Positions 49,503 through 60,470 of a DNA stretch of 64,000 nucleotides are shown in pieces. The notes under the pieces were generated by a model. That model had not been told where the DNA came from and did not search any database. It saw nothing but the letters and a program-made list of their open reading frames with translations. Origin of the DNA: Burkholderiales bacterium (lineage in GTDB: Bacteria > Pseudomonadota > Gammaproteobacteria > Burkholderiales > Burkholderiaceae_C); assembly GCA_016192425.1 (NCBI GenBank), contig JACPUE010000021.1:1-64000 (forward strand), read 5' to 3'. Both the position numbers and the translations under genes were made by a program. Within the stretch, counting starts at the first letter, position 1, and every line of letters starts with the position of its first letter.

Positions 49503-50474
49503 TCAAGCCCTGCGCGGCACGGTCAGCCCCCACAGCAGGGCCAGCAGCAGGGCCGAGCCGGTGTTGTGCACCAGTACCAGGGCCAGCGGCAGCTCCCGGG
49601 CGACCATCGCCAGTCCCAGTGCGGCCAGCGCGGCAGGCAGGCACACCAGCAACGCGGCGGCCTTGCGCTGCCCCAGGCGCCAGCTGCGCCAGGCCAGCAG
49701 CCACAGCACGGCGGTCAGCAGCAAGCCGCCTGCGCGGTGCAGCAGGTGCACCCATGCGCCTTCTGCGCGCGTCGGCAAGGCGCCGGACGGGGGCTCCAGC
49801 CACGGGTTCAGCGCTTGCCAGGAACCTGCGGCCAGGTCGCAGCCGCCCGTGGCGGGACAGCTCAGGCCCACATGGCCTGCGCTCACCAGCCCGCCCAGGG
49901 CCACCTGCGCCAGCAACACCAGGCCCGCCAGCCAGGCCCAGGGCGCCAGCGGTACAGCGCCGGGGCGTGCGGCAGAAGGTGCCGCAGCCACCAGCGCCAG
50001 GCGCACGCTCAGGGCCAGCATGGCAAAGCCACCCAAAAGGTTGCCCAGCGTCACTGCGGGCAGCCGGGACTGTGCCGTCCAGCGCCCCAGCACGGCCAGG
50101 AACAGCGCCAGCCCCAGGATGCACAGCGCGAGGCGGCCCTCGGGCCACAGGGCGGGACGCGATGCAAGGGCTGTTGCCAACATCGCCAGCACCAGCAGCA
50201 GGCTGGCAGATGCCACCACCCGGTGGGCCATGCGCGCGGAAGCGGTGGCGCCCTGCGCCGGTGTGGTTGGCGTGTCAGCCACGGTTGCCTGCTGGGCCTG
50301 GGCGTAGCACTGCGGCCAGGGCTCGCAGTCCAGGCCCGCCTTGGACAGGCGCAAAAAGGCACTCAGGCAGGTGATGAGCAGCACCATGGCCGCACACACC
50401 CAGGCCATGCGCTGCAACCGCTGCCTGCGGCGGGCTACCGGCGTAGCCTGCAGGTTCAATTCAATATATTTCAT
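49503..50474 (-). CDS. ctaA: Heme A synthase (CtaA/COX15 family)
   Basis: The 323-residue membrane protein has about eight helices in two similar halves, with heme-ligand type histidines in RMAHRVVAS, LHRAGGLLL and LVHNTGSALLL. Two C-x5-C pairs (CEPWPQC and CPATGGC) match the cysteine pairs of bacterial CtaA. It converts heme O to heme A. It is divergent from the heme-copper operon (50728 on), which also encodes heme O synthase, so the enzyme made there may use heme A. The start is ATG 50474; upstream in-frame sequence has no similarity. Confidence 0.9.
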   Translation of the reverse strand: MKYIELNLQATPVARRRQRLQRMAWVCAAMVLLITCLSAFLRLSKAGLDCEPWPQCYAQAQQATVADTPTTPAQGATASARMAHRVVASASLLLVLAMLATALASRPALWPEGRLALCILGLALFLAVLGRWTAQSRLPAVTLGNLLGGFAMLALSVRLALVAAAPSAARPGAVPLAPWAWLAGLVLLAQVALGGLVSAGHVGLSCPATGGCDLAAGSWQALNPWLEPPSGALPTRAEGAWVHLLHRAGGLLLTAVLWLLAWRSWRLGQRKAAALLVCLPAALAALGLAMVARELPLALVLVHNTGSALLLALLWGLTVPRRA

Positions 50475-50648
50475 GGGGGTATTGGAAGAGTGTGGCGTAA
50501 AAGTCACACAGACCGGACGGCACAGAGGGAAAACACTTGGAATGCAACGCGAGCGTGTAAATATGCACGCCGTATGCATAAAACACACTTTGTGACATGA
50601 ATTTTCGTGTTGTTACCAACATCGGGCCGGTTTGTGATGTCCCAAGTG

Positions 50649-50662
50649 TTGATTCAGATCAT
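50649..50662 (+). promoter_or_regulatory. FNR/DNR-type box upstream of the heme-copper operon
   Basis: TTGAT-tcag-ATCAT matches the FNR consensus TTGAT-N4-ATCAA except for the last base. Sequences like gaatat and tataag at 50687-50695 could be a -10, giving a start site some 42-46 bases from the box centre, close to the class II activator position. It lies 66 bases before the first gene. FNR would point to low-oxygen control and DNR/NNR-type proteins to nitric oxide control; the two share this motif. The rest of the 253-base ctaA gap shows no gene. Confidence 0.6.
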
Positions 50663-50727: not shown

Positions 50728-50883
50728 ATGAGCCACCATGACGATGAGAACGAGAAAGTCCCGTTCCTACAACAGTTGCTGGACAACCCATTCCTGCTGC
50801 TGTTCCTGGGCGTGATGATTCCCATGATTGTGTACAACCTTTGGGGTGTCATTGACATTTTGACCATCCCCACAGCCAAGTAA
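50728..50883 (+). CDS. Small one-helix subunit of the heme-copper complex
   Basis: The 51-residue protein MSHHDDENEKVPFLQQLL ... ILTIPTAK has a charged N terminus and one membrane helix (about residues 22-42). It starts after AAGGAGAAGTGAACC and ends 12 bases before the subunit II gene. It resembles in size and place the small subunit of ba3-type oxidases (CbaD-like), which packs against subunits I and II. I cannot show homology; the role is inferred from size, helix and position. Confidence 0.75.
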   Translation: MSHHDDENEKVPFLQQLLDNPFLLLFLGVMIPMIVYNLWGVIDILTIPTAK

Positions 50884-50895
50884 AGGAACACAGCC

Positions 50896-51435
50896 ATGAG
50901 CGCAATTCTTCCCCCCTCAGAGCGGTTGTGGTGGAAACACCCGCTGGACCGCCTCGAAGCCGTCTGGATCGGCATCGCCTTCGTCTGGTGCATGGTCATG
51001 TTCTTCATGATGGTGTTCTGGCACATCTACGGCAAGCAGAACCTTGCTACCGAAACCTACAAGACCGCACCGGAAAAGTACTCCGCCCAAGCCCAGGCTG
51101 TGGTGGACAAGTACACGGTACGCACCGAAACCGAGCAGAACATCCCCGTGGTGGCGCCTCCCGAAGGCTCCGACGTGTACATGGTCGCCCGCCTGTGGAA
51201 CTGGTGGCCCATTCTTGAGCTGCAAAAGGGCAAGACCTACAAGCTGCACCTGACCTCCATGGACTACAACCATGGCTTCTCGCTGCAGCCCACCAACATC
51301 AACATCCAGGTGGTGCCGGGCTACGAGCACGTGATCAAGATCACGCCGAACGAGTCGGGCACCTTCTCCATCGTGTGCAACGAGTATTGCGGCATTGGCC
51401 ACCACGAGATGGTGGGTCGTATGTACGTGAAGTAA
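50896..51435 (+). CDS. Heme-copper enzyme subunit II with CuA site
   Basis: The 179-residue protein has one N-terminal membrane helix (about 21-45) and a cupredoxin domain outside. The CuA site is complete: His in MDYNHGFSLQPTNIN, then C-x3-C-x3-H-x2-M in CNEYCGIGHHEM near the C terminus. It would accept electrons from a cytochrome c or other periplasmic donor and pass them to subunit I. Length is short, like ba3-type subunit II. It precedes the subunit I gene by 13 bases. Confidence 0.93.
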   Translation: MSAILPPSERLWWKHPLDRLEAVWIGIAFVWCMVMFFMMVFWHIYGKQNLATETYKTAPEKYSAQAQAVVDKYTVRTETEQNIPVVAPPEGSDVYMVARLWNWWPILELQKGKTYKLHLTSMDYNHGFSLQPTNINIQVVPGYEHVIKITPNESGTFSIVCNEYCGIGHHEMVGRMYVK

Positions 51436-51448
51436 TGCGAGGAAAGCC

Positions 51449-53149
51449 ATGACCGTACAAACCACTTACCGTACCTGCCCGCGCTCGGGCCTGCAGTTTG
51501 AAAAGCAGGCTGAGACGCTCATGAAAATCAACGCCGTCACCGCCGTGGTGGCACTGCTCGTCGGGGGCCTGCTGGCCATCGGCGTGGTGCTGACCCGCTG
51601 GCCCGCGGTGCACTGGCTCGCGGCCGACACCTTCTACATGGTGCTCACGGCCCACGGCATCGACATGCTGATCTTCTGGATCATCTTCTTCGAAGTCGCC
51701 GTTCTGTACTTTGCCTCCTCCACCCTCTTGCGGTGCCGATTGGCGACACCCAAGATCGCCTGGGCCGCCTATGCGCTCATGCTGGTGGGTGCCGTGATGA
51801 ACAACGTCTCGGTGTTCAAGGGCGATTCGAGCGTGATGATGACCTCCTATGTGCCCATGATGGCGCACTGGTCGTTTTACCTCGGCCTGATCCTGTTCGC
51901 CGTGGGCGCGCTCATTGCCTGCTTCATCTTCTTCGGCACGCTGGTGGTTGCCAAGCGCGAGAAGACCTATGAAGGCTCCGTGCCGCTGGTGACCTTCGGT
52001 GCCATCACGGCCGCCATCATCGCGGTGTTCACCATCAGCTCGGGTGCGATCATCCTGATCCCCACCTTCCTGCTGTCCGTGGGCGTGATCGACCAGGTCG
52101 ATCCCCTGATCTACCGCACCATCTGGTGGGCTTTCGGCCACTCGTCGCAGCAGATCAACGTGGCTGCCCACATCTCGATCTGGTACGCCGTCGCCGCCAT
52201 CGCCTTTGGCGCCAAGCCCATGTCCGAGCGCGTCAGCCGTGGCGCCTTCCTGCTGTACATCCTGTTCCTGCAACTCGCCAGCGCCCACCACCTGCTTGCC
52301 GACCCCGGCATCAGCACCGAGTGGAAAGTGGTGAACACCAGCTACTTCATGTACTTTGCCGTGCTGGCATCCATGATCCACGCCCTGTCCATCCCTGGCG
52401 CCATGGAAGTGGCCCAGCGCGCACGCGGCTACAACAAAGGCCTGTTCGAATGGCTGCGCAAGGCGCCCTGGGGCAACCCGACATTCGCTGGCGTGTTCAT
52501 CGCCATCGTGGGCTTCGGCTTCCTGGGCGGCATCACCGGCGTGATGATGGGTACCGAACAGCTCAACCTGCTGATCCACAACACCATCTACGTGCCTGGC
52601 CACTTCCACGCCACCGTGGTGATCGGTACCACGCTGACCTTCATGGCCCTGACCTACTTCCTGATTCCCGTGCTGTTCCAGCGCGAGATGATCGCCCCTG
52701 GCCTGGCCAAGATCCAGCCGTACCTTTTCGGCTTTGCGATGTACTTCTTCTGCCTCGTGATGATGGGCGCAGGCACCCTGGGTGTCTCGCGCCGCCACTG
52801 GGACATGGCCTTCAGCGGCCATGCACTGGCCTATGAATGGCCCGGTGCTGCCTACCTGATGATGGGCCTGGTCGGTATCAGCGGCATTACCGCCATCGCT
52901 GGCGGCGCCATCTTCGTGTACGTCACCGTGATGTCCGTGTTCTTCGGCAAGAAGCTCGACGCCGGTGTGGTCAGCCCCAAGTTCACCCCGCTGATGCCTG
53001 CGGCTCCCACCGCTGCTGCGCAGACCTATGGTTCTGCCGGCTTCGTGGCGCCCGGCACCTTCGTGCTGGCGGTGTTCTTCCTCGTGACCTTTGTGCTGTA
53101 CTACTTCGTGAACTGGAAGTACCTCGGCCAGCTGTGGGGTCTGAGCTGA
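51449..53149 (+). CDS. Heme-copper enzyme subunit I lacking the active-site Tyr (candidate nitric oxide reductase type)
   Basis: The 566-residue protein has about 13 membrane segments. All six metal histidines are placed as in heme-copper enzymes: H69 (LTAHGID), H231 (FGH), H280-H281 (SAHHLLADPG), H385 and H387 (VPGHFH). Oxygen reductases of A and B type have H-P-x-V-Y after the H231 equivalent; here the sequence is H-S-S-Q-Q. The cbb3-type Tyr, six residues before the HH pair, is Leu here. Nitric oxide reductases of this superfamily lack the Tyr, so a NOR-type function (sNOR/eNOR-like) is plausible; B-family oxidase is the alternative. The next genes are cyoE and SCO. Confidence 0.85.
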   Translation: MTVQTTYRTCPRSGLQFEKQAETLMKINAVTAVVALLVGGLLAIGVVLTRWPAVHWLAADTFYMVLTAHGIDMLIFWIIFFEVAVLYFASSTLLRCRLATPKIAWAAYALMLVGAVMNNVSVFKGDSSVMMTSYVPMMAHWSFYLGLILFAVGALIACFIFFGTLVVAKREKTYEGSVPLVTFGAITAAIIAVFTISSGAIILIPTFLLSVGVIDQVDPLIYRTIWWAFGHSSQQINVAAHISIWYAVAAIAFGAKPMSERVSRGAFLLYILFLQLASAHHLLADPGISTEWKVVNTSYFMYFAVLASMIHALSIPGAMEVAQRARGYNKGLFEWLRKAPWGNPTFAGVFIAIVGFGFLGGITGVMMGTEQLNLLIHNTIYVPGHFHATVVIGTTLTFMALTYFLIPVLFQREMIAPGLAKIQPYLFGFAMYFFCLVMMGAGTLGVSRRHWDMAFSGHALAYEWPGAAYLMMGLVGISGITAIAGGAIFVYVTVMSVFFGKKLDAGVVSPKFTPLMPAAPTAAAQTYGSAGFVAPGTFVLAVFFLVTFVLYYFVNWKYLGQLWGLS

Positions 53150-53165
53150 TCGGAAGCCTTGAGCG

Positions 53166-54065
53166 ATGCACACCACCACGCTCAAGCCCGCCGGGCGCAG
53201 CATGGGCCAGATGGCGCGCGACGTCATCTCGCTGTTCAAGCTGCGCATCGGTGTGCTGATCATGATTACCGCGCTCGTGGGCATGGCGATCGCGCCAGGA
53301 AAGGCACTCAGCTTCATGCAGGTGCTGATCCTGGCCGTGTCCGTGCTCCTGGCGTCGGCAAGCGCGGGGGCGTTCAACCAGTATGTCGAGTACGAGAGCG
53401 ACCGCTTGATGGAGCGCACCAAAAAGCGCGCCTTCGTCACGGGTGCGTTGCCCCACCATCCTGCCTGGCTGGTCCTGATGGCCGTGCTGCTGGCGGGGGC
53501 CGTGGGCGCTACCTGGGCCGCACTCAATGGCGTTGCGGCGCTTCACGTGTTTCTCGGTGCATTCTTCTACGGGGTGGTCTACACCCTGTGGCTGAAGCGG
53601 CGCACTTCCCTCAACATCGTCATCGGTGGCCTTGCGGGGAGTTTTGCCGTGCTGGCGGGCGCTGCCGCCGTAGATCCGGCGCTGGGGCCCCTGCCCTGGC
53701 TGCTGGCCCTGGTGCTGTTCCTGTGGACACCGCCCCATTTCTGGAGCCTGGCCATCGCCAACCGCGACGACTACGCCCAGGCGGGCGTGCCCATGCTTCC
53801 CGTCGTTGTGGGCCCCGAGCGTGCCGCCCGCACCGTGCTGGTGAGCACCGTGGCGCTGTTCGTCGCCTCGCTGCTGCCCCTGGCCTACGGTGCAGGCCCG
53901 GTGTATGCCGTGGGCGCACTCGCTGGCGGACTGCACTTTGTGCGCAAATCCTGGCTGCTCGCGCGCAAGCCCGAGCGTGCCACGGCCATGGGTTCCTTCT
54001 TTGCATCGCTGGTGCAGTTGAGCGTCCTGCTGGTCGCCGCCTGCATTGATGCCGTGCTGCGCTGA
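53166..54065 (+). CDS. cyoE: Protoheme IX farnesyltransferase (heme O synthase)
   Basis: The 299-residue UbiA-type prenyltransferase makes heme O, the precursor of heme A. It has about nine membrane segments, the first acidic motif NQYVEYESDRLMERTKKR (one position Glu instead of the usual Asp) and the second region ANRDDYAQAGVPMLPVV. It begins 16 bases after the subunit I gene. Together with divergent ctaA it suggests that subunit I carries heme O or A. Confidence 0.93.
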   Translation: MHTTTLKPAGRSMGQMARDVISLFKLRIGVLIMITALVGMAIAPGKALSFMQVLILAVSVLLASASAGAFNQYVEYESDRLMERTKKRAFVTGALPHHPAWLVLMAVLLAGAVGATWAALNGVAALHVFLGAFFYGVVYTLWLKRRTSLNIVIGGLAGSFAVLAGAAAVDPALGPLPWLLALVLFLWTPPHFWSLAIANRDDYAQAGVPMLPVVVGPERAARTVLVSTVALFVASLLPLAYGAGPVYAVGALAGGLHFVRKSWLLARKPERATAMGSFFASLVQLSVLLVAACIDAVLR

Positions 54066-54076
54066 AGGAGCATGTT

Positions 54077-54940
54077 GTGGCCCGGTCGCTCCTGTCCCGC
54101 ATACGCCAGGCTGCTGCATGCTGCGGCTTGGGGCTGGCCCTGGCGCTGCCCGCCGCAGCGTCGGACCAGCGGGACGCTGCCGCCGACCTGGGCCTGGACC
54201 GTGAGCAGGCATTGCGCGCGAGCCAGGCTGCCGTCGGCCGCACGATCGGCGACCACATCCTTCTGAACCGTGAGGGCCGTCCTGTGGCCCTCTCCTCATT
54301 CCGGGGCAAGCCCCTGCTGGTGAGCTTCATCTACACCGGCTGCTTCCAGGTGTGCCCCACCACCACCAAGTCCCTGCAGGATGCGGTGGAGGGCCTCCAG
54401 AAAAGCCTGGGGCCCAACCAGTTCAACGTGGTGAGCATTGGCTTCAACCAGCCGGCCGATTCGCCGCAGGCCCTCAAGGCCTTTGCCACCCAGTACAACA
54501 TCAAGCAGTCCAACTGGGACTTCCTCAGCCCCCCGGCCGCCATCGTGCCTGCGCTGGCCAAGGATTTCGGCTTTGTGTACACCGCCACCCCCGCCGGATT
54601 CGACCATGTGCTCCAGGTCTCCCTCGTGGATGCCCAGGGGCGCATCGTGCGCCAGGTGTATGGCGAATCCGTTGCACCTGCCGAACTGGGCGAGCCCCTC
54701 AAGATGCTGCTGGCGGGGACACCGGTCGAGTCCAACCAGTTGCTGGACAACCTGGTGGACAGGGTGCGCATCCTGTGCACCGTGTACGACCCCAAGACGG
54801 GCGCCTACCGCGTGGACTACACCCTGCCCATCCAGATCGCCGGGGGCGTGACCTTTTTTGTCCTGATGCTGGTTTTCTTCATCAACGAATGGCGCTCCAG
54901 CCGGCAGAGCGCACGCAACAAGGGGGTGCGTAGCGCCTGA
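54077..54940 (+). CDS. SCO1/SenC-family copper chaperone
   Basis: The 287-residue protein has a signal peptide, a thioredoxin-like SCO domain and an extra C-terminal membrane helix (about 255-275, IQIAGGVTFFVLMLVFFINEW), which is not usual for SCO. The copper site is C-x3-C-P in GCFQVCPTTTKSL with a His in FDHVLQVSLVD. It assists CuA assembly in subunit II. GTG at 54077 is preferred because AAGGAG lies at the right distance; an ATG at 54072 is in another frame. Confidence 0.9.
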   Translation: MARSLLSRIRQAAACCGLGLALALPAAASDQRDAAADLGLDREQALRASQAAVGRTIGDHILLNREGRPVALSSFRGKPLLVSFIYTGCFQVCPTTTKSLQDAVEGLQKSLGPNQFNVVSIGFNQPADSPQALKAFATQYNIKQSNWDFLSPPAAIVPALAKDFGFVYTATPAGFDHVLQVSLVDAQGRIVRQVYGESVAPAELGEPLKMLLAGTPVESNQLLDNLVDRVRILCTVYDPKTGAYRVDYTLPIQIAGGVTFFVLMLVFFINEWRSSRQSARNKGVRSA

Positions 54941-54954
54941 CGCTCGCCAGTTCC

Positions 54955-56544
54955 ATGTCTCTGCCAGGTACAGCCTTCCCCCCCGAAGGCCCCAGCATCT
55001 CTCCCTCCCTCTCGCCGGTTTCCCGCCTCGCTGCCACCTACCGGGCTTTGGAGCACGCGTTCGACGGAGCCTTCGGCCCGGCGCTCAACCCGCTCAAGCA
55101 CCTGGGGGCGCTGGGTTTCATGCTGCTGTGGCTGCTGGTGGTCAGTGGCACGGTGCTCTACATCGTGCTCGACACCTCGGCTGCCGGTGCCTACCGCTCC
55201 ATCGAATCCCTGACCAAAGTGCCCTGGATGCTGGGCACCGCCCTGCGCGGCGTGCACCGCTACGCGGCCGATGCGTTTGTCGTCGTCATGGGCGCACACA
55301 TTGCGCGCGAATGGGTGCTGGGCCACTACCGGCACTTTCGTACCGTGCCCTGGATCACCGGGGTGCCGCTGGTGGCCCTGGCCTTTGTCTGCGCCGTGGG
55401 GGGCTTCTGGCTCAACTGGGATCGCCTGGGCCAGTATTCCGTGGTGTCCACGGCCGAGTGGATCGACACCCTGCCTTTCCTGGCCTCGCCCTTGGCACGC
55501 AACTTTCTGGGGGGCGTGAGCCTCAGCGACCGGCTGTTCACCCTGTTCGTGTTCATCCACATCGGCATGCCCTTGCTGATGATCTTTGGCCTGTGGTTCC
55601 ACATCCAGCGCATCAGCCTGGCCAAGGTGTTCCCACCGCGAGCCCTGGCCTGGGGCACCTTTGCCACCTTGTTAGCGCTGTCCTTCGTGGCGCCAGTGGT
55701 CAGCCAGGGGCCTGCAGACCTTGGCACGGTACCCGCGGTGCTGGCGATCGACTGGATTCTGCTGTTCATCCACCCGCTGATCGATGCCACCTCGCCGCTG
55801 GTGGTGTGGGGGCTGCTGGGGCTGGCGTTTGTACTGCTGTCGGTGCCGCCGTTCCTGCCTGCGCCGCCCCCGGCACCGGTTGCGGTGGTGTACCCCGACC
55901 ACTGCAGCGGCTGCGGGCGCTGCTTTGACGACTGCCCCTATTCGGCCATCACCATGGTGCCGCACCCCAACGGACGCCGGGGCATGCGCATGGCCGAGGT
56001 GAATGCCGATCTCTGCGCAGGCTGCGGCATCTGCGCGGGCGCGTGCCCGTCGTCCACCCCCTTCCGCAGCGCCGAGGTACTGGTCACCGGTATCGACATG
56101 CCGCAATGGCCCGTGAACGACCTGCGCCAGCAGCTGGTGCAACGCCTGGCCGCCATGCCGGGCCCCCGGCGCCTGGTCGTCTTTGGCTGTGAACAAGGCG
56201 CCCGCACCCGCCTGGACGCCCCCGACGTGCTGCATTTCCCGCTGGTGTGCGCAGGCATGTTGCCGCCCTCCTTTGTGGAATACGCGCTGCGTGCGGGTGC
56301 CGACGGCGTGCTCATCAACGGCTGCCGCGAAGGCGGCTGCGAATTCCGCCTGGGCCAGCGCTGGACCGCCCAGCGCCTGAGCGGCGAGCGCGAACCCCAT
56401 CTGCGCAGTTCGGTACCTGCCGAACGCTGGCGCACTGCCTGGACCGACCCCGGCGACGAACGCGCACTGGCGGCTGCCGTGGACGAATTGCGCAGGCACT
56501 GCGATGCCGGCGCCCCCCCTGAACTTGAGGAGAAAAACCGATGA
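54955..56544 (+). CDS. Fusion: cytochrome b, two [4Fe-4S] clusters, FlpD/MvhD-like domain
   Basis: The 529-residue protein begins with a cytochrome b-like four-helix part (about 30-240) that has the two bis-heme pairs H-x13-H (HRYAADAFVVVMGAH and HIGMPLLMIFGLWFH). After further helices come two [4Fe-4S] motifs, CSGCGRCFDDCP and CAGCGICAGACP. The final domain (FGCEQGA, PLVCAGMLPP, LINGCREGGCEFR) resembles the [2Fe-2S] FlpD/MvhD subunits that link hydrogenase or formate dehydrogenase to Hdr. It could carry electrons between quinone and soluble carriers. The combination is unusual and the partner is unknown. Confidence 0.85.
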   Translation: MSLPGTAFPPEGPSISPSLSPVSRLAATYRALEHAFDGAFGPALNPLKHLGALGFMLLWLLVVSGTVLYIVLDTSAAGAYRSIESLTKVPWMLGTALRGVHRYAADAFVVVMGAHIAREWVLGHYRHFRTVPWITGVPLVALAFVCAVGGFWLNWDRLGQYSVVSTAEWIDTLPFLASPLARNFLGGVSLSDRLFTLFVFIHIGMPLLMIFGLWFHIQRISLAKVFPPRALAWGTFATLLALSFVAPVVSQGPADLGTVPAVLAIDWILLFIHPLIDATSPLVVWGLLGLAFVLLSVPPFLPAPPPAPVAVVYPDHCSGCGRCFDDCPYSAITMVPHPNGRRGMRMAEVNADLCAGCGICAGACPSSTPFRSAEVLVTGIDMPQWPVNDLRQQLVQRLAAMPGPRRLVVFGCEQGARTRLDAPDVLHFPLVCAGMLPPSFVEYALRAGADGVLINGCREGGCEFRLGQRWTAQRLSGEREPHLRSSVPAERWRTAWTDPGDERALAAAVDELRRHCDAGAPPELEEKNR

Positions 56545-57044
56545 ACCGCGTACTCAACTGGACCGGCCAGGCCCTGCTGTACGGCAGCTTTGCCGTGGCA
56601 CTTGGGGTGTTTTCACGCTGGCCTGTGTACCACCCCTTGCCGCCGGACATGGCGCAGATCAAGGTCAGCTTCATCCACCACGGCCAGCGCATCGCCGATT
56701 GCCGCGCCTACACCGCCGAAGAGCAGGCCAAGATGGCCAAGAACATGCGCAAGGCCATGAAGTGCGAGCGCGAGCGTTCACCGGTCAGCATCGAGGTGGA
56801 CATCGACGGCAAGTCCATGGTGCGCCACACCTCGGCGCCTTCGGGACTGTCGCGCGACGGCGCATCCACCGTGTACCAGCGGCTGGATCTGCCCGCGGGC
56901 GAACACCGCATTGCCGTGCGCTTCAAGGACAACAAGGCGGTCGAAGGCTTCACCCATGAGCGTGAGGAGACCGTGGTTCTCAAGTCCGGGCAGGTCATGG
57001 TGATCGACTTCAACCCCGACAAGGGAGGCATTGTTCTGCTATGA
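56541..57044 (+). CDS. Membrane-anchored protein of unknown function
   Basis: I do not recognise this 167-residue protein. It has one N-terminal membrane helix (about residues 8-25), then a domain that looks extracytoplasmic and beta-rich, with two Cys near residues 54 and 75 (IADCRAYT, KAMKCERER), and ends VMVIDFNPDKGGIVLL. ATGA overlaps join it to the genes on both sides, so it is expressed with them. A structural or assembly role for the neighbouring membrane proteins is a guess. Confidence 0.75.
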   Translation: MNRVLNWTGQALLYGSFAVALGVFSRWPVYHPLPPDMAQIKVSFIHHGQRIADCRAYTAEEQAKMAKNMRKAMKCERERSPVSIEVDIDGKSMVRHTSAPSGLSRDGASTVYQRLDLPAGEHRIAVRFKDNKAVEGFTHEREETVVLKSGQVMVIDFNPDKGGIVLL

Positions 57045-58480
57045 CCGCAGGTACTTCCCCCCTGCCTGGCGTGCAGGGCAAGCCCCAGGCCTCGTCGCCT
57101 GCCGCGCACGCGGGCACGGACTACCAGCTGAGCGTTCCCCAGGACGCGCGCCAGGCCTTGGCACGGGGCTGGCTCTGGCTCGGCGTGGCCGCACTGATCG
57201 GCTCCGGGCTGTTCTCGGTGCTGCTGGTGGTGTCGCGCACGCCTTACGTGAACCAATGGCTCCCGGCGGCCAACTTCTTCCACATCTCGCTGGTGCTGCA
57301 CGTGGACCTGTCGGTGCTGGTGTGGTTCGTATCCATGGCGGGCCTGCTGTGGAGCCTGCACGCCAGCCAGCGTGCGCAAGGGGCTGGCTGGCTGGCGCTG
57401 TGGGTGACGGCCGCAGGCACGCTGGCCATGGCGCTGGCGCCCTTTCTGGCGCCGGGCGAACCCATCATGGCCAACTACATCCCGGTGCTGGAATCGCCGC
57501 TGTTCCTGGCCGGGCTGGTGGTGTTTGGCGTGGGGATCACCCTGCTGGTGCTGCGCAGCCTGTGGGCCGCACCCCGCTGGAGTCTGCAGTACGACGGGCA
57601 GGGGGCGCTGCACTTCGGCCTGCGCGGCGCCGCTGCGGCCACCGCCGTCGCGTTGCTGTGCTTTGCCTGGTCCTGGGCGGTGCTTCCCACCAGCCTGGAG
57701 GGCAAGGCGTACTACGAAATCCTGTTCTGGGGCGGCGGGCATGCGCTGCAGTTCACCTGGACGCTGCTCATGCTCGTGGTCTGGCTCTGGCTGGCCAGCG
57801 CCTGCGGCGCCCGTGTGGTGTTGAGTCCGCGTGTGGCGGTGCTGATGTTCCTGCTGGCGCTGCTGGGGGTGTTTGTCACCCCCTATGCCTACCTGGCCTA
57901 CGACGTGGCCTCGGTGGAACACCGCAACCTGCTCACCTGGGCCATGCGCCTGGGGGGCGGCCCGGCCATCGTACCCGTGGGCATGGCCGCCGTGCTGGGC
58001 GTGGCGCTGGTGCGCTCCCTGGATGCAGACCTGCGCCCGCTGCGTGCGGCGCTGCTGTCATCGGTGCTGCTCTTTGGCGCGGGCGGCGTCATCGGCATCT
58101 TCATCCAAGGCAGCAACGTGCGCATTCCTGCGCACTACCACGGTTGCATCGTGGGTGTCACGCTCGCGCTCATGGGGGCGGTCTACCGCATCCTGCCCTC
58201 GCTGGGTTACGCCGCGCCCCAGGGGCGCATGGCCACCTGGCAGCCCTGGCTGTATGGCATGGGGCAGCTCATGCACATCATCGGGCTGGTCTGGTCCGGC
58301 GGCTATGGCGTGCAGCGCAAGGTGGCCGGCACCGACCAGGTGCTGCGCAGCACCGCCGAAGTGGCGGGCATGGGCCTCATGGGCCTGGGCGGTCTCATTG
58401 CCATCATCGGCGGGCTGCTGTTTGTGGTGGTGGTGATCCGCACCATCCGCCAGCCGCACCCCAGTGCAGCCCAAGGCTGA
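57041..58480 (+). CDS. Second heme-copper subunit I-like protein with altered ligand
   Basis: The 479-residue protein has about 12 membrane segments and the layout of heme-copper subunit I. A low-spin heme His is likely H87 (LVLHVDLSV), the first CuB-type ligand H234 (FWGGGHALQF), and the last heme pair is H365 and H367 (RIPAHYHGC). Where a His-His pair is expected it has VEHRNL (E293-H294). No H-P-x-V-Y is present. The family name is unknown to me; some NOR-related groups (gNOR/nNOR type) have acidic replacements at such sites. It follows the unknown membrane protein by ATGA overlap and precedes the reductase fusion. Confidence 0.78.
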   Translation: MTAGTSPLPGVQGKPQASSPAAHAGTDYQLSVPQDARQALARGWLWLGVAALIGSGLFSVLLVVSRTPYVNQWLPAANFFHISLVLHVDLSVLVWFVSMAGLLWSLHASQRAQGAGWLALWVTAAGTLAMALAPFLAPGEPIMANYIPVLESPLFLAGLVVFGVGITLLVLRSLWAAPRWSLQYDGQGALHFGLRGAAAATAVALLCFAWSWAVLPTSLEGKAYYEILFWGGGHALQFTWTLLMLVVWLWLASACGARVVLSPRVAVLMFLLALLGVFVTPYAYLAYDVASVEHRNLLTWAMRLGGGPAIVPVGMAAVLGVALVRSLDADLRPLRAALLSSVLLFGAGGVIGIFIQGSNVRIPAHYHGCIVGVTLALMGAVYRILPSLGYAAPQGRMATWQPWLYGMGQLMHIIGLVWSGGYGVQRKVAGTDQVLRSTAEVAGMGLMGLGGLIAIIGGLLFVVVVIRTIRQPHPSAAQG

Positions 58481-58493
58481 AGGAATACGAACA

Positions 58494-60419
58494 ATGATCA
58501 AGAAACTCCAAGACCTGTTGCAATGGCTTTTCCTCAAGGCCGAGGGCCTGTTCAATGCCGCCTTTGGTGACCGCATCAACCCCTTCTACCACCTGGGCGC
58601 CATCACCTTCTTCCTGTTCTGGGTGGTGGGTGCCACCGGCCTGTACCTGTATGTGTTCTTCGAAACCGGCATTGCCGAGGCCTACTCCTCGGTCATAGCG
58701 CTCACCGAGCACCAGTGGTGGATGGGCGGCATCATGCGCAGCGTGCACCGCTACGCCTCCGATGCCATGGTGCTGACCATGGTGCTGCACATGCTGCGCT
58801 ACTTCGCATTCAACCTGTACCACGGGTTCCGCTGGTTCTCGTGGGTTACGGGTGTCATGCTGATCTGGATGGTCTATGCCTCGGGGATCAACGGCTACAT
58901 GCTCCCCTGGGACCAGATGGCGCAGTACATCACGGTCTCCAGCTTTGAATGGCTGGACTGGCTGCCGATCTTCAACGGCACGCTGATGCGCAACTTCCTC
59001 TACTCCGACCACGTGGGCGATCGCTTCTTCACGCTGCTGTCCTTCATGCACCTGGGCATTCCGCTGGTGTTGCTGATGATCATGTGGATCCACGTGCAGC
59101 GCGTGCCCAAGGCGCGCACCACGCCGCCGCGCCCCATCGTCGTTGGCATGCTGCTGACCTTTCTGGTGCTCTCGCTGGTGGCCCCGGTGCACAGCCAGGG
59201 CGGGGTGAGCAACCTGGCCAGGGCCGTGACCGAGGTGAAGCTGGACTGGTTCTACATGGCCGTGTTTCCCTTGATTACCGACTGGCCCCTGGCCCGTGTG
59301 TGGGCGCTGGTGGTGGGCGCCTCAGTGCTGCTGGCCCTGCTGCCCTGGTGGCCGCCGCAGTTCCGCCGCGGCGACAAGCGTGTGCACCAGGTGGTGGTGC
59401 ACGGTGCAGAGGGTGCGAGCGCCGACTTCAAGGTGCGCGAGGGCGAAACCATTCTGGATGCAGGCCTGCGCCAGGGCCTGGCCCTGCCCTACGAATGCCG
59501 CAACGGCGGCTGCGGCCTGTGCGTGTGCAGCGTGGAACAGGGCAGCATCGAGCACCGCCCCTACCAGCGCAGCGCCCTGCCCGACGCCCAGAAGGCCCAG
59601 GGCAAGGCACTCATGTGCTGCGCCGTGCCCAAGGGCGATCTGGTCATCGACGTGGAAGGCTTCACCGGCGCAGAGCACCAACAGGCCGAAGTGCACACCG
59701 CCACCGTGGCGCAACTGGAGCGCCTGGCAGACGACGTGATGCGCGTGCTGCTGCAACTGCCCGAAGGCAAGGTGCTGGATTTCAGCGCTGGCCAGTACAT
59801 CGACATCCTGCTGGAAGATGGCCAACGCCGCGCGTTCTCGTTTGCCAACCGTCCCGGCGAGAGCCGCCAGATCGAACTGCATGTGCGCCTGGTGCCCGGC
59901 GGGCGCTTCACCACCCACGTGTTCCAGGGCATGAAGGTGGGCGACACCCTGCGCTTCGAAGGCCCGCGCGGCAGCTTCACGCTGCGCGAAAGCCAGCACC
60001 CCATCCTCTTCGTGGCCGGGGCCACGGGCTTTGCGCCCATCAAGAGCATTGTCGAAGACGCCTTTGCGCGCGGCGTGCAGCGCCCCATGCGCCTGTATTG
60101 GGGCACGCGCAAGCCGCAGGACCTCTACATGCTGGAGCGCTGCGAGCAATGGCAGCGCGAGCATGCCAACTTCACCGTGGTGCCCGTGGTGTCCGACGCC
60201 AGCGAGGGCGACGGCTGGACCGGCCGCACCGGCCTGGTCCACGAGGCCATGCTGGCCGACTTTACCGACCTCAGCGGCCACGAGGTGTACCTGTGCGGCT
60301 CCGTCAAGATGGTGGAGACGGCCGTGCCCGCCTTCATCGCCCAGGGGCTGGACGAAAACGCCTGCTTCTCGGACGCCTTCCTGATGGCCGCCCCGGCCCA
60401 GGCCCCGGCGCAGCAGTAA
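58494..60419 (+). CDS. Fusion: cytochrome b, [2Fe-2S] ferredoxin, FAD/NAD(P) reductase
   Basis: The 641-residue protein starts with a cytochrome b-like part (about 1-245) with two H-x13-H pairs (HRYASDAMVLTMVLH and HLGIPLVLLMIMWIH). A plant-type [2Fe-2S] domain follows (about 300-385, CRNGGCGLC then a later Cys in LMCCAVP). The end is a ferredoxin-NAD(P) reductase module with RAFSFANRP for FAD and FVAGATGFAPIKSI for NAD(P). It would connect NAD(P)H with a membrane quinone or heme chain. AAGGA supports the start at MIKKLQDLLQW. It is the last gene before a strong terminator. The direction of electron flow is unknown. Confidence 0.9.
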   Translation: MIKKLQDLLQWLFLKAEGLFNAAFGDRINPFYHLGAITFFLFWVVGATGLYLYVFFETGIAEAYSSVIALTEHQWWMGGIMRSVHRYASDAMVLTMVLHMLRYFAFNLYHGFRWFSWVTGVMLIWMVYASGINGYMLPWDQMAQYITVSSFEWLDWLPIFNGTLMRNFLYSDHVGDRFFTLLSFMHLGIPLVLLMIMWIHVQRVPKARTTPPRPIVVGMLLTFLVLSLVAPVHSQGGVSNLARAVTEVKLDWFYMAVFPLITDWPLARVWALVVGASVLLALLPWWPPQFRRGDKRVHQVVVHGAEGASADFKVREGETILDAGLRQGLALPYECRNGGCGLCVCSVEQGSIEHRPYQRSALPDAQKAQGKALMCCAVPKGDLVIDVEGFTGAEHQQAEVHTATVAQLERLADDVMRVLLQLPEGKVLDFSAGQYIDILLEDGQRRAFSFANRPGESRQIELHVRLVPGGRFTTHVFQGMKVGDTLRFEGPRGSFTLRESQHPILFVAGATGFAPIKSIVEDAFARGVQRPMRLYWGTRKPQDLYMLERCEQWQREHANFTVVPVVSDASEGDGWTGRTGLVHEAMLADFTDLSGHEVYLCGSVKMVETAVPAFIAQGLDENACFSDAFLMAAPAQAPAQQ

Positions 60420-60432
60420 GCAGCCCCAAAGC

Positions 60433-60470
60433 AAAGCGCCCGGCGCCTGTGCGGTGCCGGGCGCTTTTTT
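60433..60470 (+). terminator. Intrinsic terminator of the respiratory operon
   Basis: aaagcgcccggc ... gccgggcgctttttt forms a long GC-rich stem with a T run, 13 bases after the reductase fusion stop. The A-rich start would also allow it to act on the ubiD transcript coming from the other strand. Confidence 0.9.

Follow-up and report, generated by a model that had tools for sequence, protein, structure and literature searches.

The window analysed here, a stretch of 64,000 nucleotides from a Burkholderiales bacterium (contig JACPUE010000021.1), contains nine plus-strand genes (50728–60419), separated by short gaps or joined by ATGA overlaps, whose central product, the heme-copper subunit I designated SU I, is well supported by its sequence features as a putative CuA-containing nitric oxide (NO) reductase of the eNOR type, a likeness drawn through the published description of that family. 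This would be an already known type of enzyme; the new part is a second subunit I-like protein, HCO2, together with the make-up of the operon. The features of the locus are given below, with frequencies that refer to 58 named SU I loci, those of 80 with at least 8.5 kb of sequence after SU I, the relatives counted being the best 80 of 427 confirmed and biased to close kin, many of the rows near-copies.

49503–50588, minus strand: divergent ctaA/COX15-like gene, given as its longest open reading frame (PF02628); ctaA occurs in 30 of the 58 named loci
50649–50662, plus strand: FNR/NNR-type box TTGATTCAGATCAT, matching 9 of 10 positions of TTGAT-N4-ATCAA, the FNR/NNR consensus
50728–50883, plus strand: 51-residue, one-helix peptide at the place of a B-type subunit IIa, present in 57 of the 58 named loci
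50896–51435, plus strand: subunit II with the CuA motif H...CNEYCGIGHHEM (Pfam COX2, 21.9 bits, just under the cut-off of 22)
51449–53149, plus strand: SU I, heme-copper subunit I with Gln235 replacing the active-site tyrosine, putatively eNOR-type (open reading frame, Pfam, alignment, family counts, tree)
53166–54065, plus strand: ctaB/cyoE, heme O synthase (TIGR01473, 273.7 bits, above the cut-off)
54077–54940, plus strand: SCO1/SenC protein with a CxxxC motif (PF02630)
54955–56544, plus strand: FlpD fusion of 529 residues, combining a cytochrome b N-terminal domain (two H-x13-H pairs), two [4Fe-4S] motifs and FlpD/MvhD (Pfam; 54 of the 58 named loci)
56541–57044, plus strand: 167-residue protein with one N-terminal hydrophobic stretch (judged by eye), overlapping both neighbours by ATGA and present in all 58 named loci
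57041–58480, plus strand: HCO2, second subunit I-like protein of 479 residues (Pfam COX1, alignments, fold, row counts)
58494–60419, plus strand: FNR fusion, combining a cytochrome b N-terminal domain, [2Fe-2S] and an FAD/NAD(P) reductase (Pfam; 54 of the 58 named loci)
60433–60467, plus strand: terminator-like hairpin after the last gene, with 15 pairs and a T tail (stem/tail search)

The SU I reading frame begins with ATG and encodes 566 amino acids that match Pfam COX1 with 211 bits; Pfam and NCBIfam gave general heme-copper oxidase families only, and all NCBIfam matches were below their cut-offs. The residues that the original prediction had singled out are all in place: the six histidine ligands (H69, H231, H280, H281, H385 and H387) were found, the helix-VI segment claimed as H-S-S-Q-Q reads G-H231-S-S-Q-Q235-I-N, with Gln235 and without the cross-linked helix-VI tyrosine of B-family oxygen reductases, and a leucine, L274, occupies the position of the cbb3-type helix-VII tyrosine, this position being located by alignment with a cbb3-like protein of the same genome, whose tyrosine stands six residues before the HH pair. 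Among 129 distinct family reading frames, many of them closely related (142 before identical ones were dropped; each scored more than 300 bits against the family profile), Q234 and Q235 never vary, H231, H280, H281 and H385 are each present in all 129, H387 in 128 (one Lys) and H69 in 127, the remaining two having gaps. Because Gln235 is fixed in every one of these sequences, it is a family trait of SU I and not a chance substitution. Y246 is likewise invariant (129/129) and aligns with the channel tyrosine Y248 of the ba3 enzyme; by our own reading of the ba3 alignment, Y246, S259 and T297 would lie at K-type channel positions. B-type oxidases are the nearest solved structures to SU I, both by sequence and by fold; the fold comparison used a predicted structure of moderate quality (pLDDT 74, with low values at helix X). 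Over SU I lies an antisense open frame of 728 residues (51341–53527, minus strand). Such long frames on the opposite strand occur often in GC-rich DNA, and no sign of a gene was seen in this one.

The excerpts of PMC8756737 considered here trace eNOR to Hemp and Gennis 2008, as cited there, and give as its mark a glutamine at the position of the active-site tyrosine, the gene for a CuA-type subunit II being found just before that of subunit I. They place putative eNORs, many misannotated as cytochrome c oxidase, in the Alpha-, Beta-, Gamma- and Deltaproteobacteria, with Rhodocyclaceae and Thermus sequences in the alignment; the portion of PMC11388526 used describes eNOR as B-related and biochemically characterised. 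SU I shares with eNOR, as these two partial sources present it, the glutamine for tyrosine, the CuA/cupredoxin subunit II directly upstream, the kinship to the B family, the occurrence in Proteobacteria and the frequent annotation as cytochrome c oxidase; our reading of SU I as eNOR-type rests on the fit of glutamine, CuA subunit II and B-type layout to the description in PMC8756737. The six histidine ligands of the two hemes and CuB are common to both as well. The eNOR of R. marinus (Rhodothermus marinus) has reportedly been characterised by Murali et al. 2024. The idea that SU I is a CuA-containing NO reductase annotated as a cytochrome c oxidase is thus well supported by its family traits (Gln, CuA, B-type layout), but the accompanying comparison with the norSY-senC (sNOR) arrangement is not supported, since sNOR is listed with asparagine where SU I has Gln235.

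The comparison with other members of the superfamily turns on the same residue. The best solved-structure matches of SU I, the ba3-type B-family oxygen reductases (Thermus thermophilus; 7deg, an Aquifex enzyme), have the same IIa-II-I gene order, but carry the tyrosine of HPxVY where SU I has glutamine. In sNOR, as far as the excerpt of PMC6967387 goes, subunit II and SCO/SenC genes also stand beside subunit I, and bNOR/CuANor is CuA-containing and B-related; both nevertheless differ from SU I at the active site, where Table A4 of PMC8756737, one of the parts drawn upon, lists Asn for sNOR and CuANor, Asp for gNOR and Glu for cNOR and qNOR. The last two are NO reductases of the same superfamily and have similar proteins, assigned by motif, in the source genome, yet they stand on a distant branch of the tree. 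Filings of SU I under sNOR, bNOR, cNOR, qNOR or gNOR were rejected on account of Gln235.

The placement of SU I was explored with a maximum-likelihood tree of 59 rows, among them 14 rows with the glutamine, 21 HCO2 rows and 15 B rows hand-chosen for spread (including five of the 11 weak class hits); the eNOR assignment combines the published residue criterion with the placement in this tree, eNOR reference sequences not being among its rows. Two separate, neighbouring clades emerge, one of the 14 Gln-bearing rows (100/99) and one of the 15 Tyr-bearing B-type rows (H-x-x-V-Y; 99/96); the Gln clade is far from the A-type, cbb3-like, cNOR-like and qNOR-like rows, and three long branches (own_L002, own_L005 and G046_L055) have unsure positions. 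In all 11 of the weaker class hits fetched, the motif is H-x-I-V-Y. Clustering with proven oxygen reductases had been named as the outcome that would speak against an NO reductase; SU I falls on the B-type side, beside the Tyr-bearing rows and not inside them. Gln-bearing relatives were also found on a Defluviimonas plasmid (HSSQQ, 61% identical to SU I) and on a Thermus thermophilus plasmid (HGAQQ, 47% identical). Rrf2 and DUF542/ScdA_N genes come after the Thermus relative (L188:9983–11668, plasmid pTthSNM6-6b), in which helix X reads H-F-K instead of H-F-H, which places a lysine at one heme ligand position. Separately, a 590-residue B-side subunit I in genome G046 (L055:6308–8077, minus strand), with Y-H in helix VII and Y-F-H in helix X, is a further heme-copper protein that has lost active-site ligands, and it forms one of the long branches of the tree.

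The main rival to the eNOR-type reading makes SU I a B-type oxygen reductase of high affinity that dispenses with the usual tyrosine, as has been argued for the sNOR of Nitrosomonas europaea, which according to the excerpt of PMC6967387 may be a high-affinity oxidase. The B-side position in the tree agrees with this, as do the ctaA, ctaB and SCO genes, which are ordinary oxidase assembly genes. Against it, the tyrosine is missing from all 129 family sequences, SU I of the window has no tyrosine at the cbb3 position either, and the Tyr-bearing B-type relatives examined belong to the other clade or have a different motif, so that we consider an oxygen reductase rather improbable. Bacterial oxidases, ba3 included, slowly reduce NO as a side reaction (PMC8780969, in the part used here), and NO reduction alone would therefore not exclude oxygen reduction.

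The genes around SU I that the original prediction had named, those for CuA subunit II, SCO, heme O synthase and a CtaA-like protein, are present as listed above, whereas HCO2, both cytochrome b fusions, the 167-residue protein and the gene of the 51-residue peptide had escaped its mention. The CuA motif is kept in 79/79 related subunit II proteins and the CxxxC motif of SCO in 75/75. The 51-residue peptide matches no family in Pfam or NCBIfam; in B-type oxidases the gene immediately before that of subunit II encodes subunit IIa (PMC3128077, in the excerpt considered). Both cytochrome b histidine pairs are found in 71 of 72 FlpD fusions and 67 of 72 FNR fusions, the two [4Fe-4S] motifs of the former in 64/64 and the [2Fe-2S] motif of the latter in 60/60. 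The longest reading frame of the FNR fusion begins at 58464, the ATG at 58494 being the likelier start, which leaves a short gap after HCO2. Each fusion attaches FeS or flavin domains, which should face the cytoplasm, to a two-heme b-type cytochrome, so that the two proteins are likely to link cytoplasmic reductant and membrane. One open reading frame with cytochrome b6, FeS and FlpD domains is listed in another context in the available portion of PMC8756737, so the FlpD fusion is not unique to these operons. The 167-residue protein has no match in Pfam, NCBIfam or PHROGs. Downstream, the hairpin at 60433–60467 has the longest stem among the 12 terminator-like sites that the whole stretch holds, where 6.5 would be expected.

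Compared with published eNOR loci, HCO2, the two cytochrome b fusions and the 167-residue protein are extra here, none of them being mentioned for eNOR in the excerpts of PMC8756737 and PMC11388526; neither were they found in the 21.5 kb around the T. thermophilus plasmid relative. Among the 58 named loci, which show several gene orders, SCO is present in all, HCO2 in 57 (the exception is L093) and ctaB in 48. Smaller gene sets exist as well: four loci (L251–L254) lack ctaB, HCO2 and the FNR fusion but hold SU I with subunit II and SCO, along with the FlpD fusion and the 167-residue protein; the Defluviimonas plasmid has this same set plus ctaB, with no HCO2 in the stretch seen; and L182 shows nothing beyond the peptide, the two subunits, ctaB and SCO. 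On account of these gene sets, we regard eNOR and SCO as the usual core, to which the FlpD fusion and the 167-residue protein mostly belong, and HCO2 with the FNR fusion as a frequent addition. On the Defluviimonas plasmid, a hemerythrin-family gene (L187:17526–17930) follows the eNOR-type operon at the place of HCO2. Isolates that carry the operon are Acidovorax sp. 210-6 and Castellaniella defragrans DSM 12141, in the latter without ctaB and the FlpD fusion.

Strong matches to SU I and HCO2 occur in the same 18 of 60 genomes (that of the window and 59 relatives). Two broader samples, both including the window genome, were scored by thresholds of our own (SU I at least about 340 bits, HCO2 200 bits), such that sub-threshold partial matches, for example SU I in G781 and G284 or HCO2 in G203 and G507, are excluded from the counts. 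In the class sample (369 genomes), HCO2 accompanies SU I in 28 of 34 genomes and occurs without it in 18; in the phylum sample (398 genomes), the corresponding numbers are 29 of 30 and 28. A strict dependence of HCO2 on eNOR, or of eNOR on HCO2, is rejected by these co-occurrence counts.

HCO2 matches Pfam COX1 alone, with none in NCBIfam or PHROGs, and no solved structure matches it by sequence; the best fold match of its AF2 model (pLDDT 87.7) is a ba3 oxidase, with an E-value of 2.4e-09. Of the features of heme-copper membership, the fold and the heme-ligand positions are found, but not the three CuB histidines. The heme-ligand positions H87 (helix II), H365 and H367 (helix X) are kept in 108/108 rows with letters, as is each of H234 (helix VI), Q237 and Y366, and in place of the helix-VII histidine pair HCO2 has A283-Y284, on which two aligners agree. 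Histidine is found at the first helix-VII place in none of the 108 rows with letters; the second, a CuB-ligand position, is Tyr in 81 and His in 21. Tyrosine is nearly universal there in rows from named SU I loci (60/61). A second set of 29 rows, drawn from the phylum sample and G046 and in part from genomes with SU I, has His in 20, Phe in 4, Tyr in 3 and Glu and Pro in one each. In the 59-row tree, the 21 HCO2 rows, four of which were flagged for odd composition, form one clade (100/100) that is sister to the Gln clade (98/93) on a stem of 1.73, a length owing to which this attachment is held loosely. Two HCO2 homologues (L054:7150–9408, 753 residues, and L175:9525–11753, 743 residues) have a C-terminal TPR extension. 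In L171, where a frame of 1562 residues surrounds a distant HCO2, only COX1 is recognised, near the end.

The open-licence full texts, a scope outside which most subscription papers fall, yielded no description of HCO2 or of the operon among the passages retrieved. HCO2 might be the already named family nNOR, hence known, given that nNOR is mentioned as B-related (PMC11388526) and with an HMM (PMC11707229) in the parts of these sources used; we think this unlikely, since the open-licence literature searched, as far as its passages go, gave no described family that lacks the helix-VII histidine pair. With gNOR, the mismatch is at the active site, listed as Asp, where HCO2 has Phe, rarely Tyr or Val. 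The idea of a cofactor-free HCO2, a dead paralogue or pure scaffold that remains from a duplication, would accord with the long stem branch and with the loss of the histidine pair in 108/108 rows with letters; the retention of H87, H365, H367, H234, Q237 and Y366 in every such row, its persistence in nearly all named loci despite changes in gene order, and its presence without SU I in both genome samples make this very unlikely.

A stronger case can be made for a biogenesis factor for heme-A/O oxidoreductases, which would take part in heme delivery or CuB-site assembly outside the electron path. In the 25 loci compared, 8 of them operon loci like that of the window, HCO2 has a CtaA-type gene no more than 6.5 kb away in 7. 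It adjoins HCO2 in six and is 3.3 kb off in L170. The seven are distant HCO2 loci (L167–L170, L177, L183 and L184), some of whose stretches also hold SCO, ctaB or CuA-type subunit II genes, and Pfam confirms CtaA in both loci tested. In the vicinity of HCO2, other loci have DUF420 (L176 and L173), ctaB, SCO or an ordinary subunit I, and L251–L254, with the smaller gene set given above and no HCO2, indicate that eNOR is able to do without it. Four of the seven CtaA loci, on the other hand, come from one genome family (f57) and are not independent, and the NAD(P)H-linked cytochrome b that adjoins HCO2 here, like the CuA-type subunit II near it in L176, is a better fit for a redox protein. We see an assembly role as a real possibility, somewhat short of even. 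A more detailed redox proposal makes HCO2 a new redox subunit of the heme-copper fold, whose heme site has one histidine (H234), Gln237 and, in place of the last CuB ligand, Y284. The FNR fusion would drive it with NAD(P)H, and it would form one complex with the CuA NO reductase, whose reduction of NO, or a side reaction of it, could then draw electrons from either side of the membrane; in that full form the proposal appears doubtful to us. As general readings of HCO2, assembly factor and redox subunit both stand.

The FNR/NNR-type box ahead of the operon has counterparts in the relatives: of 78 distinct but mutually related upstream regions, 61 have an FNR-like site that matches at least 8 of 10 positions, against 4.3 expected from single-base shuffles. 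Boxes of this type precede microaerobic oxidases too, and this counts for the oxygen-reductase reading. The source genome encodes, on contigs C1, C34, C67, C52 and C17, six COX1-family proteins: aa3-, cbb3-, cNOR- and qNOR-like ones (by motif), SU I and HCO2. It also has D1-domain (nitrite reductase-type) genes, and a search that covered clade I NosZ found none. The cNOR- and qNOR-like proteins, the D1-domain genes and the lack of a clade I NosZ are fitting for an organism that makes and removes NO. Because cNOR-like and qNOR-like proteins are already there, however, another NO reductase is not obviously needed, which weighs against the explanation that we favour.

That explanation, which we consider quite probable as a whole, is an eNOR-type NO reductase operon in which the cytochrome b fusions would join cytoplasmic reductant and HCO2 would be a heme-binding partner. 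The ligand residues, the gene set, the invariance of the glutamine, the B-side placement and the regulator-like boxes are read directly from the sequences. For the SU I operon, we infer the substrate, the direction of electron flow and the regulator as follows. An FNR/NNR-type regulator would turn the operon on under low oxygen or NO, and CtaB and SCO, with CtaA nearby, would provide heme O/A and copper. SU I, the CuA subunit II and the 51-residue peptide would make up the reductase, with electrons passing from a periplasmic donor to CuA and on to the low-spin heme (H69/H387) of SU I; two NO would then be converted to N2O at the high-spin heme (H385) and CuB (H231, H280 and H281), Gln235 replacing the tyrosine. 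The two cytochrome b fusions most likely connect cytoplasmic reductant with the membrane pool that feeds the SU I enzyme, the FNR fusion taking NAD(P)H and the FlpD fusion an FeS/FlpD partner, and HCO2 would bind hemes and act with these cytochromes as a redox subunit or maturation factor.

NO reductases make N2O, and those of the eNOR type are often booked as cytochrome c oxidases (PMC8756737, in the excerpts considered), so that surveys of this lineage can miss part of its capacity for denitrification. The operons of Acidovorax sp. 210-6 and Castellaniella defragrans DSM 12141 offer a concrete test case in isolates. HCO2, for its part, is a heme-copper fold that has lasted across a phylum without the CuB histidine pair, and it bears on how the active site of the superfamily can be rebuilt and on other tasks for the fold.
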